A DNA stretch of 64,000 bases from Gammaproteobacteria bacterium (lineage in GTDB: Bacteria; Pseudomonadota; Gammaproteobacteria; Pseudomonadales; Moraxellaceae). Shown here one piece after another: positions 32,781 through 50,555 of the stretch (positions are counted from its first letter, which is position 1; each line of letters opens with the position of its first letter). Both the position numbers and the translations under genes were made by a program. The notes under the pieces were generated by a model. That model searched no databases. It was not told the DNA's origin and saw nothing but the letters and a program-made list of their open reading frames with translations. Where the stretch lies: assembly GCA_028868515.1 (NCBI GenBank), contig JAGWUI010000001.1, positions 124,001 to 188,000 of the forward strand, given 5' to 3'.

Positions 32781-32806
32781 TTTACGATATGAACAGGAGT
32801 ACCGAT

Positions 32807-33829
32807 ATGGCGCGCACTGGACTGTATAAATCTGAAGTCAAAAAGGCTCGTGAGTCTTTGCTGGCACAGAGCAAATATCCATCAGTTGATGCGGTACGAG
32901 TTGAACTTGGTAATACAGGCTCAAAAACAACTATTCATAAGTATCTGAAAGAGCTTGAGGAAGAGGATGGTGGTTCAACTAGGCATAAAATTGAAATCAG
33001 TGAGGCATTGCAGAATTTAATTTCGCGACTGTCCAGCCAATTGCAAGATGAGGCTAATGCTCAGGTTAGGGAGATACGCTCTGAAAGTGAGGCAAAAGAT
33101 CAACTACATACTGAACAATTATCAGTTTTACATACAAAAATTGAAGCACTGGGTAATCAAGTGAGGCTGTCAGAAAGCACGTTACTTCTGGAAAAGTCAG
33201 CTCACCACGAAACGCAAATCACACTACAAAATGAGACGATAGTTCGTCATACGTTAATGCAACAAGTCACCGATCTAAATGATCGTCTGGCCGAAAATGA
33301 GACCCATCGTCAGTCGCTTGAAGAAAAGCACCAACACGCACGGGATGCTTTAGAACACTATCGCCAATCAGTTAAAGAACAACGAGAGCAAGATCAGCGA
33401 CGCCATGAACTACAGATCCAGCAATTACAAGCAGAACTGCGCCAAGTGCAACAGACAGTCATCATTAAACAAGATGAATTAAGCAAATTAAACCAAGAGT
33501 GTATACGTCTGAGCACTAATTTATCCCATGCTCAAAGTGGTCTTAGTGACGAACTCGATAAAAGTCAGCGGCTGGCTCAACTACTACAAGCCAGTGAGCA
33601 ACACGGTAAAATGCTGGAAGTTCAACTTGCGGGTAAAGAAACTTTAATTAAAGAACAAAACGATCAAGCAATTGAGATAACAAGACAAATGAAATCATTA
33701 AGCGCTGAAATACATGGTCTTCAGCTAGAATTAGCAACAGCACACGCTAAATTGGAAGCACACGGCTCTATTTCAGTTGAATTACGTGAATTTATGAGCA
33801 AAACGAAGATAAATGCATTGGTAGAGTAA
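32807..33829 (+). CDS. KfrA-like DNA-binding coiled-coil protein
   Basis: A 340-residue protein with an N-terminal KfrA-type DNA-binding domain (SEVKKARESLLAQSKYPSVD, then TGSKTTIHKYLKELEEE) followed by a long, almost uninterrupted coiled coil of Gln/Glu/Lys/Leu-rich heptads to the C-terminus. I start it at the ATG preceded by AGGAG 7 bp upstream. KfrA proteins are nucleoid-like factors that polymerise along DNA and are typical of plasmids and integrated mobile elements, so this gene hints at a plasmid origin for part of this region. It stands alone between terminator and a convergent GT87 gene. Confidence 0.78.
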   Translation: MARTGLYKSEVKKARESLLAQSKYPSVDAVRVELGNTGSKTTIHKYLKELEEEDGGSTRHKIEISEALQNLISRLSSQLQDEANAQVREIRSESEAKDQLHTEQLSVLHTKIEALGNQVRLSESTLLLEKSAHHETQITLQNETIVRHTLMQQVTDLNDRLAENETHRQSLEEKHQHARDALEHYRQSVKEQREQDQRRHELQIQQLQAELRQVQQTVIIKQDELSKLNQECIRLSTNLSHAQSGLSDELDKSQRLAQLLQASEQHGKMLEVQLAGKETLIKEQNDQAIEITRQMKSLSAEIHGLQLELATAHAKLEAHGSISVELREFMSKTKINALVE

Positions 33830-37816: not shown

Positions 37817-38599
37817 TTATTTAATAGCTTGCGTATCGTTGCTGCCAGCTATGCTGTATTGTGCGATTGACACAAGTATCACAATCACAATTAAAAAAAG
37901 AGCACTCGTCCACATCGCACCAAAACCAAAACCACCATAAGCTTTTGCTTGAGTCAGCAGATCGCCTAATGCTGCACCGAATGGTCTTGTTAGGATGTAT
38001 CCAATCCAAAACGTTAGCACTGAATTACCTCCTCCTCGCCAAACCACATAAATGAACGCAATCAAAATCCCAAAAACAACAACTCCCCACATAAAACCTA
38101 GTCCAAGGGCTTCTGTGGCTAAATCACCAGTCGCTGTTCCCAATGCAAACGTGCAAAGAATCGCAGACCAGTAAAACAATTCTCGGCGTGGTGTAAAAAT
38201 TTGATGAATAGATAAATTGCGTTCTACCCAATACCAGCAAGCAAAAATCACCATAAGCAATACAGCAAATATCGCTGTACTGGTATATAAGCTGACACCA
38301 AGTCCATCAGTGAGAAAATCAGTCACTAGAGTGCCAACAACACTTACTAAAACAACCGTAAACCAGTAAATCCATGGAATAAAGCGCTGAGTACGAAACT
38401 GAATAATCAGAGCTAAAGCCAGCAGTGAGACCATAACTACACGCGTCAAGCCTTGACCCAAGCCTGCATTTACAGCTAAAAAATCAGCACCTGTTTCACC
38501 AACCGTTGTGGACATAATTTTAATCACCCAAAACGAGAGTGTTATTTCAGGGACTTTGTTCAACCAATTTGATTTTGGAGATACAGTAAGTAAATTCAT
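37817..38599 (-). CDS. COG4705-family multi-helix membrane protein
   Basis: A 260-residue protein with about seven to eight membrane helices and internal repeats around acid-glycine motifs: [16 protein letters not shown] near residue 27, [30 protein letters not shown] and [13 protein letters not shown]. These repeated [T/G]-x-[T/G]-[D/E]-[F/L] turns are typical of COG4705 proteins, whose function is poorly defined and probably transport-related. It is the first gene of the operon leading into the two-component system. Conserved buried acids suggest ion movement, but this is inference. Confidence 0.7.
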
Positions 38600-40082: not shown

Positions 40083-40622
40083 TTAAACATGATGCATCAG
40101 CGGATACACAACTAGCCCAATCAATGCCGCCGCAGAGACAATTACAGGCTCCTGTAGTTTTTTAAACTTCCAGAGCAATATGGCCGTACCGATCGCTAGT
40201 AATGCCGTTGGAACATCAGTAATTGTGCGTTCCGCCAACATGACCACCGAACCCACGATTGCGCCAATGGCCGCAGCCGTAATTCCATCAACAAAGGCCA
40301 GTAATCCCGGACGTTTGCCATACTTCCTGAAATAAGGCATAGCAAGGACAGTGAGTAGATAACACGGCAGGAATGTTGCCAGAGCTGCTACACTAGCACC
40401 AGAAAAGCCATCAACCAAATACCCGATAAAGCCTGTAGTAATGACAACTGGCCCCGGCGTAATCATCGTGACAGCCACTGCATCAACAAACTGTTTTTCA
40501 GTCAGCCAATGATGTTCCGTCACCACCCCGCCATAGAGGAATGGAACAATCGCAAGACCAGAACCAAACACAAACGCTCCCGCTTTGGTAAAAAACCACG
40601 CAATTTGAGGGGTATTAATCAT
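40083..40622 (-). pseudogene. chrA: Chromate transporter ChrA, C-terminal half only
   Basis: 179 residues match the second half of long-chain ChrA: AWFFTKAGAFVFGSGLAIVP, HHWLTEKQFVDAVAV, MITPGPVVITTGFIGYLV, GITAAAIGAIVGS. The N-terminal half is absent. The same frame continues upstream past a TGA directly before the ATG for 69 codons that do not resemble ChrA, so a deletion or insertion joint lies close to 40623. Full-length ChrA exports chromate by proton symport; this half is probably inactive. GC content is higher than in the flanking repeat DNA, consistent with transfer. Confidence 0.75.
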
Positions 40623-40960: not shown

Positions 40961-41367
40961 AAATCTGTCGTAAGGTGTCGAATCTTTTTCATCGATCAAA
41001 TCTGACGGCTTAAGTATGGTCACTTATAACAAATCCATCGTAAAGTTTGAATCACTCCATCATCTAAAATAAACATAAGATATTGTTTAATATTAAATAA
41101 AACAATTAATTATTAGAAATATGTCGTAAGTGTCGAATCTTTCTAACCAAGACTAAAGATCAAAATCATATATATATTTGCAGCTAAATCTGTCGTAAAT
41201 GTCGAATCTATTTAGCAGAGAAATACACGCATGTATTTGAATAGTATTAGAATATGTAATGTATCTTTAAAAATTTATCGTAAATATCAAAATTTCTCTT
41301 TATGAGAGCATAAAGCTATTTATGCGTATATTTGTTCTCAAATCTGTCGTAAGTGTCGAATCTATTT
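40961..41367 (+). repeat. Iteron-like array, six units, GTGTCGAATC core
   Basis: Six direct repeats begin at 40961, 41031, 41117, 41186, 41271 and 41340. Four are close to AAATCTGTCGTAAGTGTCGA followed by ATCT; those at 41031 and 41271 are degenerate. Start-to-start distances are 70, 86, 69, 85 and 69 bp, an alternating pattern. The intervening DNA is AT-rich and not repeated. No gene is apparent from 40833 to 41547. Iterons of a plasmid-type origin or a partition/regulator-binding array are the best guesses; no Rep gene is in the window. Confidence 0.75.
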
Positions 41368-41378
41368 CATGTTGTACT

Positions 41379-41483
41379 CTCATGTTTAAAACAGTCGATA
41401 TTTTCGACACGTTGTTCACATATGTTTAAGCAATCAACATATCAATAGAACGTGTCGATTTTTAGCATATTTTTAAACATGAG
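41379..41483. repeat. 105-bp inverted repeat, 48-bp arms around 9-bp loop
   Basis: Arms 41379-41426 and 41436-41483 are equal in length. Identity is full in three blocks: CTCATGTTTAAAA outside, TCGACACGTT in the middle and ATATGTT next to the loop TAAGCAATC. The middle block contains the inverted form of GTGTCGA, the core of the adjacent direct-repeat array, so the same protein probably binds both. It lies right of the array and 64 bp from the fic stop. Confidence 0.75.
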
Positions 41484-41547: not shown

Positions 41548-42660
41548 CTAACCAAAAGCTATTTGATAGCGTGTATTCCGTCCCTCACCCTCTAATTTCT
41601 TGATGCAGCCTTTTTCGAGCAGGTCTGCTAAATGTCGTTTGGCAGTTGCTTTGCTGACGTTCGTTAGGGTTTGATATTGTGATGTACTCATTTCATTCTG
41701 TTCTTCTTCTAACATCAAGTTTAGAACTTTTAATTGCTCTTGGGACAATGACAGAACATTCAGTCTCTGCCAGAACTGCGCCTTTATTAACGACGTTTGG
41801 ATACGATCCAGTGTGCGCTGTATTGCTTGATCTAAAGTCTGTAAAAACCAAACTACCCAATCCGTAATATCTAATTTGCCGCGCTGACTCTGCTCTAAAA
41901 TACGATAGTAATCTTTACGTTGCTCAAAGATAGCGGCTGGCATCGCATAAAAACGAATGCTCTGGGGCTCAGCTTGAGCTAGTGCTAAATCAGTCAATGC
42001 ACGCGTAATCCGTCCATTGCCATCATCAAAAGAATGTAACGTCACAAACCATAAATGCGTTATTGCCGCTCTGAGTAGAGGATCTAAAAGATTATCTTCT
42101 TGGCTGCGGTTAAACCATTCAATAAATTGATCGAGTTCGGCATCTAATATATCTGAATCTGGTGCTTGAAAATGGATGATGGGTTTATCAGCTAGACCCG
42201 ATACAACTTCCATTCCTTCAACACGTAGTTCTCCGATTCTTATTTTTCCAGCCCAACGATCTTGTTCAATGAATATCCATTGGTGCCACTGGAATAAACG
42301 TTCGCGTGTGAGTGGATGCTCTAGATTAGTCACCGCATCCAACATGATTTCGACTAACCCCTCAGAGCGTTTCGATTTGGAATCATGTCTGTCTTCAACG
42401 ATATTGAGTCGTCTAGCAAGCGATGAACGGAGTAATTGAACATTCAGGCTTTCATCTTCAATTGCTGATGAAGCAATGATATTCAGCGAAAGAGTCTCTA
42501 GTTTTAAAGTGGAATGATCTACTTGAGATAAATAATGGCAAGTTCCCAGCAATATGCCTTGCTTCAGTCTGGTGTGCCGCAGTAATGGCTGGACGATGTC
42601 TTCTTGCCAAGTAAAATTTGGCCAGTCTTCTTGTTGCCAGATCCATTGTGGCGTAAACAT
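41548..42660 (-). CDS. Fic-domain AMPylase with DUF4172 N-domain
   Basis: A 370-residue Fic protein. The N-terminal DUF4172 domain (WIWQQEDWPNFTWQED) contains the inhibitory-helix motif SSAIEDE (Ser64-Glu68), so it is a self-inhibited class II Fic. The active loop is HSFDDGNGRITR (His209-Arg220), complete. The C-terminus carries a winged-helix-like segment (STSQYQTLTNVSKATAKRHL) as in many Fic/DUF4172 proteins. The enzyme would AMPylate a target protein; such proteins can be regulatory or toxin-like. Its 5' leader holds a short hairpin (42693-42713). It reads toward the iteron-like locus. Confidence 0.88.
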   Translation of the reverse strand: MFTPQWIWQQEDWPNFTWQEDIVQPLLRHTRLKQGILLGTCHYLSQVDHSTLKLETLSLNIIASSAIEDESLNVQLLRSSLARRLNIVEDRHDSKSKRSEGLVEIMLDAVTNLEHPLTRERLFQWHQWIFIEQDRWAGKIRIGELRVEGMEVVSGLADKPIIHFQAPDSDILDAELDQFIEWFNRSQEDNLLDPLLRAAITHLWFVTLHSFDDGNGRITRALTDLALAQAEPQSIRFYAMPAAIFEQRKDYYRILEQSQRGKLDITDWVVWFLQTLDQAIQRTLDRIQTSLIKAQFWQRLNVLSLSQEQLKVLNLMLEEEQNEMSTSQYQTLTNVSKATAKRHLADLLEKGCIKKLEGEGRNTRYQIAFG

Positions 42661-43131
42661 TCTTAATTCCGTGAGCCGAATAACCTAAGAATAAGGCTCA
42701 TTTATTGAGCCTTAAAATAACATCGTATGAAATTATCATCAGCTTGTCTATGGGGGCTATCAATGCTTTATTGAAATGATAGTGCTGACCATAAATTAGA
42801 CTTACATGAACTGATTGAGAAAAAACGGAAGCAAATGCAGGGTATATTGAGTGAATTTAAAAGAAATTATTGTTATAAGCGTGGCACAAAAAACTTACCC
42901 CCGAGGGCATGCTTACGCAGAGGTCACATCGGGGGCATTCGTGAATGTTAAGGTATAACTATAGGGCAATAATGTCAAGTTACGTTGGAAGTATGGTGGA
43001 GTATTAGGAGTGTTTAAAGGCAAATTTTATCTTCGTCAAAAGGAGAATTTTAGAAATGCGTATACTATCTGTGAAATGATGCGATATAGATACATCGTAG
43101 ATACATTGGCATTATCACATTTGGAATTATC
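42661..43131. other. Gap with two stem-loops, no supported gene
   Basis: Contains AAGGCTCA/TGAGCCTT (42693-42713) in the fic leader and a GC-rich stem CCCCCGA (42898-42904) with TCGGGGG (42929-42935) around a 24-nt loop. A plus-strand frame around 42800-42950 is open but has no start and no recognisable family; it may be a decayed fragment. Nothing else seen. Confidence 0.5.
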
Positions 43132-46341: not shown

Positions 46342-48696
46342 TCAACCTATCTGATCAACAGAAGCCGCTCCTCCATCAGCATGCGTTTGCATGTGGAAGG
46401 GCTTCTGCGTTAGATCTGCTCGATTAAACCGATAACGCATGTATCCAGCAATGTCGTCCTCATGCGAAGAAATTATTAATTGTCTATCTTTCAACTCACA
46501 TCTCAATAAATCAGTTAATGACGCGATATTGATTTCATCTAAGGACTGAGCAGGATCGTCAATTAAAACAAAAGCACTTTCTGAGTAGACACGATTCAAC
46601 GAAAAGAAGAACGACAAGCTTAACGCAGACAGCTGCCCAGAACTCATGGAAAGAGTTGCATCATGCTCAGACCTCTCTGCTGTACAGAACTGTATCTTAT
46701 TCCCGTCTCCATAATCAATAAAAAGACCAAGACCGCGTTGGTAGTTTTGGATCAAACGACCACTATAGATATGAAAAATTAACTCAATGTTGGAAATAAT
46801 TCGTGCTGAATAATCGCGCTCAGTTCTCGTCAATAAATTCTTCAGAAGAGATATTCTTTCTTTAGCAGCTATAGCAGCATTAATAGCATTCTGCTGTTTT
46901 GTGAAATCCTGCTTAGCAGCCTGAAGCGTAACGTTTTGCAGCTGTCTGTATTTTAAAGTAATGTAATTCCTTTTATCTAAAACTTGTTGGCGCTCCATAG
47001 TATAAAAATCATCAGTTTTGGCAAAGGTATCCTTTATGATTCGCTCCCAGCCAACTGGTGGTGCTTCGCCTTCGATCTGCTTAAGATCTCTTATTGTTGT
47101 GACAAGCTTCTCCTTTCGAGAAGCAAGCTCAATTGAATTATCAGAAAAAACTTCACTATATTCAATTTTTAGTTCAGTAAGACGTGCATTCAATCGTCTT
47201 AATTCTTCGAAGGTATTTAAATTCTTTCCAAGTTCGGTGTACAGAGCGCCTTCAAATATTTTCTCTAATAACTCCGATTCGGTTGTTAAGCTATTTTTAA
47301 TCGGATCCAATGTTATAGATATTAAACTGTGGATTTCCTGCAATCGTGCAGCATAAGCTCCGATATCATTTTCATATACTTTAGTTGTATCTGAGATTGC
47401 TTGCGCAAGTTTTTCAACCGTCTCCCAATCGACCCCGCACAAAGCACAATGTGTTCCTTCTTCGTCAAAAGCCTGCTTATGCTTTTTAAATAAATCAGCT
47501 CGAAGCTGATTTAGTTCAAGTATTTTTGCTGATTTACCGTTGAGTAGTTTAACAAGCTCATTACGACTTACTATCAAAGGTTCTAGACTATCACTGATAG
47601 TGGAACCACTCGCTTTAACTACAACTAAATCTTCAATCGTAATTGTATTTGGAGATTTGGCTAATACAAGCAGTACTTTGACCAAAGTTGCGAGTCGCTG
47701 ATGCTGAGCCTTAAGTACCTCATACCGATCAATATGTCTTCCAACTGATACGGCCACAGATAAAAGCTTATCTTTCTCAGCAATATAGCGCTCAATATCT
47801 GCATTTTTGAAACGGACACGCACTTCATCTTTACGAGCAAGTGTCTCAGCTAACAGGTCTAAGTCAGCAATAAATAGTCGATAGCGTGCTTCATCAAGTT
47901 GTAAGAATGGATCAACCAAATCCCAAGAGGGGGTTGGCTCGCAACTTGAGATTTTTTTATACTCGGTCAGCGTTTCTTGTGATGAATCGATTTTCGAAAG
48001 TTGATCAATATATTCTTTTAATACAGCCAATTTTTGTTGTGCAGCAGATGAGCTTTCTGAAGTAAGTCGTTTCTCAACTTTTAAGCAAAGACTTATTTGC
48101 TCTTTTGTCTCATGAGTTTTAAGAAGCTCGTTTAGAGCAGCTTTTCGACTAGCAATACTCTTCGCAAAAATAAAGTTGCTTTGACCTTGCTGGAGGTAGT
48201 TAAGCATTGAATAGTTCTTACTGAAACTCTCCCCGAAAAGACTATCGATATGATTTGAAGGTAAAATTTCACCTAAAGCATCGGATCTAAAATCAGTTAG
48301 GGCATATAATTTGAATATATCAAACTTATTTGCTTTATTATTATTCGGTAACTTTAAATCGGCTACTGTAGCAACCCTAGCGAAGCACAAGTGCTCATTG
48401 CCGCTAGTGCTTGAAATTTCAATCTTAATCTTAAGGTCTTTCTCACCACCCTTAACATTCCAATACAAATTATCGCTGTATCTCGTTTTGCTTCCACCCA
48501 TCACAGTGTCACAAAGATCTGTAATTCGAGAGATACCTCCTGTCAGCGCAAGTTCAATGGCATCAAAAACGGTTGTTTTTCCATATCCATTTGGCCCTTC
48601 TAGCGTTAATAACGAGCAAGATTCAAAATTAAAATCAACAAATGAAAACGCTTTAAACCCTTGAATTTGTAACCTTGATATTTTCCAACTCTTCAT
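46342..48696 (-). CDS. ABC-three-component system SMC/Rad50-like ATPase
   Basis: A 784-residue ABC ATPase of the SbcC/Rad50 type. Walker A is GPNGYGKTT (residues 34-42); a long coiled-coil middle carries a zinc-hook-like CALC (Cys417, Cys420); the signature is SMSSGQLSAL; Walker B is SAFVLIDDPAQSLDE. Its start lies 44 bp inside the preceding gene, with AGGAG ahead of the ATG. With the two upstream genes it forms an ABC-3C set (ATPase, middle component, nuclease-type component), a class proposed to act in biological conflict, for example against phage. Function by family inference. Confidence 0.82.
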   Translation of the reverse strand: MKSWKISRLQIQGFKAFSFVDFNFESCSLLTLEGPNGYGKTTVFDAIELALTGGISRITDLCDTVMGGSKTRYSDNLYWNVKGGEKDLKIKIEISSTSGNEHLCFARVATVADLKLPNNNKANKFDIFKLYALTDFRSDALGEILPSNHIDSLFGESFSKNYSMLNYLQQGQSNFIFAKSIASRKAALNELLKTHETKEQISLCLKVEKRLTSESSSAAQQKLAVLKEYIDQLSKIDSSQETLTEYKKISSCEPTPSWDLVDPFLQLDEARYRLFIADLDLLAETLARKDEVRVRFKNADIERYIAEKDKLLSVAVSVGRHIDRYEVLKAQHQRLATLVKVLLVLAKSPNTITIEDLVVVKASGSTISDSLEPLIVSRNELVKLLNGKSAKILELNQLRADLFKKHKQAFDEEGTHCALCGVDWETVEKLAQAISDTTKVYENDIGAYAARLQEIHSLISITLDPIKNSLTTESELLEKIFEGALYTELGKNLNTFEELRRLNARLTELKIEYSEVFSDNSIELASRKEKLVTTIRDLKQIEGEAPPVGWERIIKDTFAKTDDFYTMERQQVLDKRNYITLKYRQLQNVTLQAAKQDFTKQQNAINAAIAAKERISLLKNLLTRTERDYSARIISNIELIFHIYSGRLIQNYQRGLGLFIDYGDGNKIQFCTAERSEHDATLSMSSGQLSALSLSFFFSLNRVYSESAFVLIDDPAQSLDEINIASLTDLLRCELKDRQLIISSHEDDIAGYMRYRFNRADLTQKPFHMQTHADGGAASVDQIG

Positions 48697-49339
48697 TTAA
48701 CAACTCCTGAACAAGAGCCTCAGCATCCTCTTGTGTATTTTTATATTTAGAAACAAGTTCAAATGTTTTTTGCAAATTTTCTTCACTAACACTCGCAGAG
48801 ATACTATCAGACAATGTTTGTAGGGATTTTTCAGATCGTGGAACTTCTAAAAAAGGCAGTTTAATAAATGTCCGTGCTACGACACTATAAAAAGAAGGAT
48901 CTAATGGATTTTTTTTATAATCTCCAAACTCATCCATTTTTAGAATTACAGTTTTAAAATCCAGAAAGCTCTTCCCAGATATTGCTCGCTCTTCAGCATC
49001 TGAAAAATACAGAAAATATTTCTTAAAGTGGTATGGGTTTTCTTCAAGCTCCAACACTTTGTTTTCGATCTTTTTAAAATCTGAAAGATTAGTAAGTTGA
49101 TGGATCAGTACTAAATCACAATTCTTATTAAAGGATGGCTCAATAACCAAAGTCTGCGGCAAAACACTTATAACCTCTTCATGAATTTCATCAACAGTTT
49201 TAATTGAAAATAAAGTCTTAAGAACAAGGTATCGTTCAGAATCACCACTTTTTCTGCTAAAAAATATTGTTTGATCAGTTGACTTTACTAACTCAAAACC
49301 ATGATTTATAGCTGCTTCAACCAATATAGTTTCAAGCAT
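48653..49339 (-). CDS. ABC-three-component system middle component
   Basis: A 228-residue mixed alpha/beta protein (LVEAAINHGFELVKSTDQTI; CDLVLIHQLTNLSDFKK; NPYHFKKYFLYFSDAE). It has the size and position of the ABC-3C middle component: overlapping the nuclease-type gene by 8 bp and the ATPase gene by 44 bp. The first ~150 residues look like a compact domain; the C-terminus is helical and acidic (EDAEALVQELLNEELEN). Its role is probably to couple ATPase and effector. No catalytic motif seen. Confidence 0.7.
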   Translation of the reverse strand: MLETILVEAAINHGFELVKSTDQTIFFSRKSGDSERYLVLKTLFSIKTVDEIHEEVISVLPQTLVIEPSFNKNCDLVLIHQLTNLSDFKKIENKVLELEENPYHFKKYFLYFSDAEERAISGKSFLDFKTVILKMDEFGDYKKNPLDPSFYSVVARTFIKLPFLEVPRSEKSLQTLSDSISASVSEENLQKTFELVSKYKNTQEDAEALVQELLNEELENIKVTNSRV

Positions 49340-50555
49340 TTAATTCCCCCTTGGCTATCTTCATCGATATAATCGACACAGGAAGTTCTCGTATAATATT
49401 ATTGGACACATTACCAGTAACAGGACTTTTTGTAATTTTATCAGACTCACCAGTTACGTTGATATCATCATGTGCCTCGGCTCCAGTTATTAAAGTATTG
49501 TATTCATACAAAACATTAGCTAAATGCGGATTTCTACGGATTTGCTTAAGTAAACCCGCCTTGAACAAAGGGAGTCTTTTATTTGAAAGTTTAAGCGCAG
49601 TTGGAAGATACCTTTTTGTGTCCTTTGAGTAATGAGGAAGACCTGCCAGTACGATCGCTTGAGAAATTTCTGAAATGATATCAGCGTAATTTTGGATATC
49701 TTCATCTCGTATTTTTTCATTTTCAGATGAGGGGCGAAGTGAATGCATAACAGATAAAATATCTGGATCACTCATTTCATAAATGAACCGAAATATATTC
49801 CCAAATCCACCAATCTGCTCAACTGTAAAAAAATCTGTGTTGCTTGCCACATAGTCTTCAAAAACACTAGCGAATACCATTCGTAACTCTTTCAATTGAT
49901 ACGGCATATCCACGATAGCATTGAAATCTGTGCGGATAATTCCCTCCAACTCATCACTATTAATAATCTGGGTGTATGCTGCCTTATTCTCGGACATCCC
50001 GCTATGGATTAGCGCGTGAATTTTCACTACTTTTGCTGTAATAAGCTCAGAGAGAAAGCAATATTTATGCTCCAATAACAATTCAGAAGATGGCAACTTA
50101 TGCTTTGCTAAATACTCTTGAATCTTACTCTTTGTAATTTTTTCTATATCATCTAGCTTGCAAAATGGATCCGCTCCATATTTATAGAACTGAACTGTTG
50201 CCCCTTTAGAGTTAGTGTAATCAGTTGAATCATCTATGGGGTTAGCAATATGGAAATAGCGGCTCGTCAAGGAGTTACAATCAGTTTCGATACTGCTAGA
50301 TTTATCTAATGCAGTGGTGAATGTGGATCTATAAGGCGATATTTTAGCTTTCACTTGGTGAATCGAAATTGCTTTTTCAGCAACATAAATTGCAAAGTCG
50401 TCTGTACTATCAAGCTGTAATTTAAAGCTTGTCACTGTAGTTCCGAGATGTGCTTGGTCACAGAGCAGCGTAATTGAATGATAGAGTGCGACCTTGCCTT
50501 GGTAGACAAAGCCTCCCCATGAAGAGATGGCGCTGGCTGGCAAAGAAGAAGTCAC
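49332..50555 (-). CDS. ABC-three-component system effector with Cap4/DUF4297-like nuclease domain
   Basis: A 407-residue protein starting at GTG behind AGGAG. The N-terminal part resembles DUF4297/Cap4-type nucleases: SWGGFVYQGKVALYHSI, then LDSTDDFAIY and SIHQVKAK, giving a D...QxK pattern typical of a PD-(D/E)xK site. The C-terminal part (about 280-390) is the conserved ABC-3C C-terminal domain. It would cut DNA when triggered by the partner ATPase. Upstream (50556-50700) is an AT-rich leader followed by the repeat block at 50707. Confidence 0.72.
   Translation of the reverse strand: MTSSLPASAISSWGGFVYQGKVALYHSITLLCDQAHLGTTVTSFKLQLDSTDDFAIYVAEKAISIHQVKAKISPYRSTFTTALDKSSSIETDCNSLTSRYFHIANPIDDSTDYTNSKGATVQFYKYGADPFCKLDDIEKITKSKIQEYLAKHKLPSSELLLEHKYCFLSELITAKVVKIHALIHSGMSENKAAYTQIINSDELEGIIRTDFNAIVDMPYQLKELRMVFASVFEDYVASNTDFFTVEQIGGFGNIFRFIYEMSDPDILSVMHSLRPSSENEKIRDEDIQNYADIISEISQAIVLAGLPHYSKDTKRYLPTALKLSNKRLPLFKAGLLKQIRRNPHLANVLYEYNTLITGAEAHDDINVTGESDKITKSPVTGNVSNNIIRELPVSIISMKIAKGELNA

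Follow-up and report, generated by a model that had tools for sequence, protein, structure and literature searches.

A 105-bp inverted repeat in the 64-kb stretch of DNA analysed here (the window) is, in our judgement, probably the orphaned operator of a SoFic-type fic promoter whose own sofic gene appears to be gone, and the direct-repeat array beside it is a separate feature. The initial annotation had brought the two together as an iteron-like array with an adjoining inverted repeat; that reading resolves into a probable promoter relic on the one hand and an independent set of repeats on the other. SoFic-type genes encode proteins of the architecture Fic_N-Fic-SoFic_C, in which the last domain is a winged helix, and the product is a toxin directed against phages; its regulation is described as still unsettled. 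The layout of the inverted repeat would offer a widely conserved candidate operator for that toxin. Its fixed 29-19-29 geometry predicts how dimers are seated on the DNA, and the lattice of half-sites may serve as a sequence signature for sites of possible sofic loss. We did not find the lattice described in the open-licence literature that was searched.

Two kinds of repeat at one locus

The arms of the inverted repeat (41379-41426 and 41436-41483) agree at 33 of their 48 positions and enclose a loop of 9 nt, TAAGCAATC. The 48-bp arms and 9-bp loop are present as the initial annotation had claimed, and it was also right that the arms carry the GTGTCGA core in opposed orientation. Set out along the repeat are convergent RTGTYKA/TMRACAY half-sites, the pairs spanning 29, 19 and 29 bp (P29, P19 and P29) at offsets of +40 and +30; these three are the only P29/P19 pairs in the window (Table 1). 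At the end of the last P29, at or near which a SoFic gene would start, ATGAGGTTATTCCTTTAA follows instead, and an ATG found there runs into a stop after five codons. Folded as RNA, the inverted repeat gives z = -7.9, and Rfam returned no match above threshold. Comparison by DNA similarity with plasmid and phage collections gave no useful match; a 19-base piece of the repeat had 12 matches in a scan of viral contigs, all in other contexts. Weak matches to the repeat model elsewhere in its own genome (contigs C94 and C27) are without half-site pairs. Two readings as a recombination site were considered and dropped: for attC, the ends GTTTA...TAAAC are, by eye, in the wrong order, and for pdif/dif there was no pdif match in the window.

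Table 1. Features of the repeat locus and the neighbouring Fic gene (window coordinates).
Feature	Position	Strand	Remarks
Direct-repeat array	40961..41370	+	six units of AAATCTGTCGTAAGTGTCGAATC, start distances 70/86/69/85/69
105-bp inverted repeat, putative orphan SoFic-type operator lattice P29-P19-P29	41379..41483	.	layout as in SoFic promoters
P29	41382..41410	.	convergent half-sites ATGTTTA...TCGACAC, 29 bp
P19	41422..41440	.	convergent half-sites ATGTTTAAGCAATCAACAT, 19 bp, 40 bp after first P29
Second P29	41452..41480	.	convergent half-sites GTGTCGA...TAAACAT, 29 bp, 30 bp after P19
Fic gene, DUF4172-Fic-wHTH (CbFic2-like)	41548..42660	-	Pfam; PDB 8cil E=1.5e-84
Palindromes GGCTCAATAAATGAGCC, GAGCC...GGCTC	42660..42712	-	just upstream of neighbouring Fic gene

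The six direct repeats were borne out at the spacings first proposed for them, with the nuance that one unit carries an insertion and two are degenerate. The units at 41122, 41191 and 41345 are TGTCGTAAGTGTCGAATC with at most one mismatch (chance 0.02), that at 40967 is GTCGTAAGGTGTCGAATC with one extra base inserted, and the degenerate units lie at ~41037 (ATCGTAAAGTTTGAATC) and ~41277 (ATCGTAAATATCAAAAT). With up to two mismatches allowed, TGTCGTAAGTGTCGAATC has four copies at the locus against two at most in 200 shuffles, and all four plus-strand copies of GTGTCGA in the window fall inside the repeat locus. We dropped the idea that the array is built of 155-bp tandem repeats, the units showing no homology that would support it. 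With the inverted repeat the array has only the hexamer TGTCGA in common. It contains no P29/P19 lattice, and it aligns to SoFic promoters no better than shuffled sequence does, 16 of 60 shuffles scoring as high. An exact search for the repeat unit through the genome itself, 57 further genomes of the order, 349 of the family, and contigs from viruses and from GTDB recovered the array described here and otherwise just single matches at about the chance rate. The DNA search of relatives recovered the inverted repeat and not the array, which was found in no other genome searched. The array is a real feature, separate from the inverted repeat and confined to this genome among those searched, and the SoFic-operator model leaves it unexplained.

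Directly to its left is chrA (40083-40622), a single-domain chromate transporter and perhaps the surviving half of what was once a longer gene; the 340 bp between chrA and the array hold no long open reading frame.

The lattice in front of SoFic-type genes

The case for an operator comes from the promoters of SoFic-type genes, which share a simple grammar. RTGTYKA and its inverse form convergent pairs that span 29 and 19 bp in alternation, their starts lie alternately 40 and 30 bp apart, and a P29 frequently has its end at the fic start codon or close to it. P19/P29 pairs within 200 bp occur in 29 of 33 SoFic-clade promoters from gamma- and alphaproteobacteria; the motif itself had led to part of these loci, and the half-site pattern was fixed after some of them had been seen. 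Promoters located by protein search alone carry pairs in 19 of 23 instances, the other four being without a recognisable pair. Promoters of other, non-SoFic Fic genes had none (0/12), shuffles gave 0.005 per set, and 300 kb of background loci yielded no pair. Sofic genes carried on plasmids of Agrobacterium, Methylosinus, Roseibium, Cedecea and Pantoea have pairs upstream as well. The inverted repeat itself, aligned to SoFic promoters (a set that includes the promoter from the related genome G032), scores 106, the maximum for shuffles being 32. When 391 genomes of Pseudomonadales were searched with a model built from the sequence of its right half, nearly all of the strong matches stood before fic genes, most of them with a SoFic-type N-terminal sequence.

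Within a pair, the left and right half-sites resemble each other no more than half-sites from different pairs do. Since such an absence of covariation fits DNA bound by protein better than it fits an RNA hairpin, we read the lattice as more likely a DNA operator than an RNA stem. In its usual setting, a SoFic dimer would bind convergent RTGTYKA...TMRACAY half-sites through the winged helix at its C-terminus. The pairs, with widths of 29, 19 and 29 bp and a phasing of about 30 and 40 bp, would extend over the promoter as far as the start codon, and the bound SoFic would repress the toxin's own gene.

Known Fic systems bear on this model in different ways. SoFic of Shewanella oneidensis (SO_4266) is a single-gene anti-phage defence, recognised as such by PADLOC, and SoFic genes are preceded by the same layout as the inverted repeat; a 2023 paper states that binding of SoFic to DNA was still to be demonstrated (PMC10628234). 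A precedent for the mechanism is CccR of Yersinia pseudotuberculosis, a Fic-HTH protein that acts on inverted repeats 26 bp apart to repress the promoter of its own gene (PMC9755527). CccR is similar in that its Fic-wHTH gene, too, has inverted half-sites at the promoter, but it differs in motif (AGATAATCAT-N26-ATGATAATCT) and in having a single inverted pair rather than a 29-19-29 lattice.

Divergent genes with a SoFic_C domain (L145 and L147-L151) have other repeated motifs upstream, such as ATGTATA and TGCTCAAAAA, which suggests that the operator changes together with the DNA-binding domain.

A probable operator without its gene

Copies of the inverted repeat were recovered by DNA search from three genomes of the same family, G032, G007 and G010. 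The most informative is in G032 (contig C39), where an element 80% identical to ours over 105 bp has the P29-P19-P29 layout and stands before an intact sofic. That gene's product is Fic_N-Fic-SoFic_C by Pfam, matching SoFic structures at E=1e-164 and the PADLOC SoFic model at E=3e-118. The gene lies on the side that corresponds to the direct-repeat array in the window; by this comparison the array occupies the place where a sofic gene would be. Partial copies, three in G032 and one in G007, retain only the right part and abut the 3' ends of BrnTA, of RelB/YafQ, of a 342-aa gene after a RelB/ParE pair and of a small unassigned gene. The match in G010 (L058) is an irregular 30-bp pair and was left out of the counts.

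Unlike the SoFic loci, the window locus and its genome yielded no SoFic gene. Our copy is classed as an orphan because no Fic_N gene was matched in its own genome, an assembly whose division into 94 contigs at 99.6% completeness leaves room for a sofic gene in a gap. The simplest account is that sofic was lost or replaced here, which would have left the lattice stranded, with chrA on one side and a DUF4172-type Fic gene, unrelated to it, on the other. The arms of the inverted repeat are paired better than the status of a relic requires, however, so the repeat may be kept up.

Synteny with two congeners extends only as far as a membrane gene at 37817 and defence-type genes follow on the right, which places the locus, and with it the presumed relic, in a variable segment of the chromosome. 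Because that synteny stops to the left of the segment, no empty site can be demonstrated. Among the genes to the right, those at 46342-50555 (the ABC-three-component genes CTD1 and MComp1 and an SMC-like ATPase) match Lamassu-type LmuA and LmuB in PADLOC and are likely to form a defence system near the Fic gene. A dif-like site, AAGTCGTATAATGTATATTATGTTAA, lies 1.8 kb to the left of the window (contig C87 of this genome, G000, at ~122154; L060:12154), and the window is therefore probably near the chromosome terminus.

Other readings of the locus

The initial annotation had raised the possibility of an origin or partition site, perhaps that of a fused plasmid; Rep or Par proteins would then bind the direct repeats. 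The repeats do form a regular pattern and a gene with a KfrA_N domain lies 8 kb away, yet we consider this reading extremely unlikely. Iterons are spaced at about 22 bp, unlike the 69 and 86 bp of the array, and plasmid iterons form tandem 17-22 bp units, about two helical turns, alongside a rep gene. The ten window proteins scanned include no Rep, and the initial annotation had itself seen no Rep gene in the window. Plasmid records gave only three weak partial matches (E=0.05), viral contigs held no paired array, the relatives of the inverted repeat are fic promoters, and the surrounding genes look chromosomal, with the dif-like site 43 kb to the left of the repeats. The KfrA_N-domain gene (32789-33829) has chromosomal surroundings too, and no link between it and the repeats was found.

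That the inverted repeat is a mobile, MITE-like miniature element, or an RNA hairpin or terminator carried near toxin genes, seems to us unlikely. Its strong RNA fold would suit such an element, as would the partial copies that abut the 3' ends of toxin-antitoxin and other genes. Against this, the copy in many of the promoters runs up to the sofic start codon or close to it, the phasing is fixed and the half-sites do not covary; by eye, no target-site duplication was noticed in the flanks; and the hairpin has no GC-rich stem with a T tail, save for one weak terminator-like match. Slightly less likely still is an orphan lattice that continues to function, as a decoy or target for a SoFic brought in by plasmid or phage, with the array part of the same system. 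Orphan copies in more than one genus, the adjacency of the array and the TGTCGA that it has in common with the lattice all point that way, but the hexamer is the whole of the likeness and no SoFic gene was detected in the genome. A bolder form of the idea, to which we give only a very slight chance, has orphan lattices (possibly with the array) kept as decoy DNA that captures SoFic, whether incoming or resident, and tunes its toxicity; we raise it because CbFic2, a related Fic enzyme, is reported to change in activity on DNA binding (PMC10628234).

There is, finally, the Fic gene next door, which the initial annotation had offered as an alternative target of control. Its leads of a multi-site operator and of Fic were good ones; the adjacent gene as the target was not, the locus lying at that gene's 3' end. 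The gene adjoins the inverted repeat (65 bp) and its protein has a C-terminal winged helix, so the idea that repeat and array are its regulatory region has some appeal, but we rate it as very unlikely. The protein belongs with the CbFic2-like DUF4172 Fic proteins (PMC10628234), which combine Fic with a C-terminal wHTH and differ from SoFic in their N-terminal domain and upstream palindrome; it matches the PADLOC SoFic model at E=1e-40. The motif of the inverted repeat tracks SoFic genes. The palindromes on the promoter side are probably the gene's own operator: a 60% identical homologue (in G022) has a related one upstream, GAGCCGAAT...ATTCGGCTC, and no inverted repeat downstream in the stretch read. 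Since the neighbour is another kind of Fic and has an upstream palindrome to itself, it is probably not the gene that the inverted repeat serves as operator, and we keep to the orphaned SoFic operator as the preferred reading. The GGCTC/GAGCC palindrome of DUF4172-type Fic genes, noted in the window and upstream of the Fic gene at L082, is possibly a second autoregulatory operator among Fic genes.
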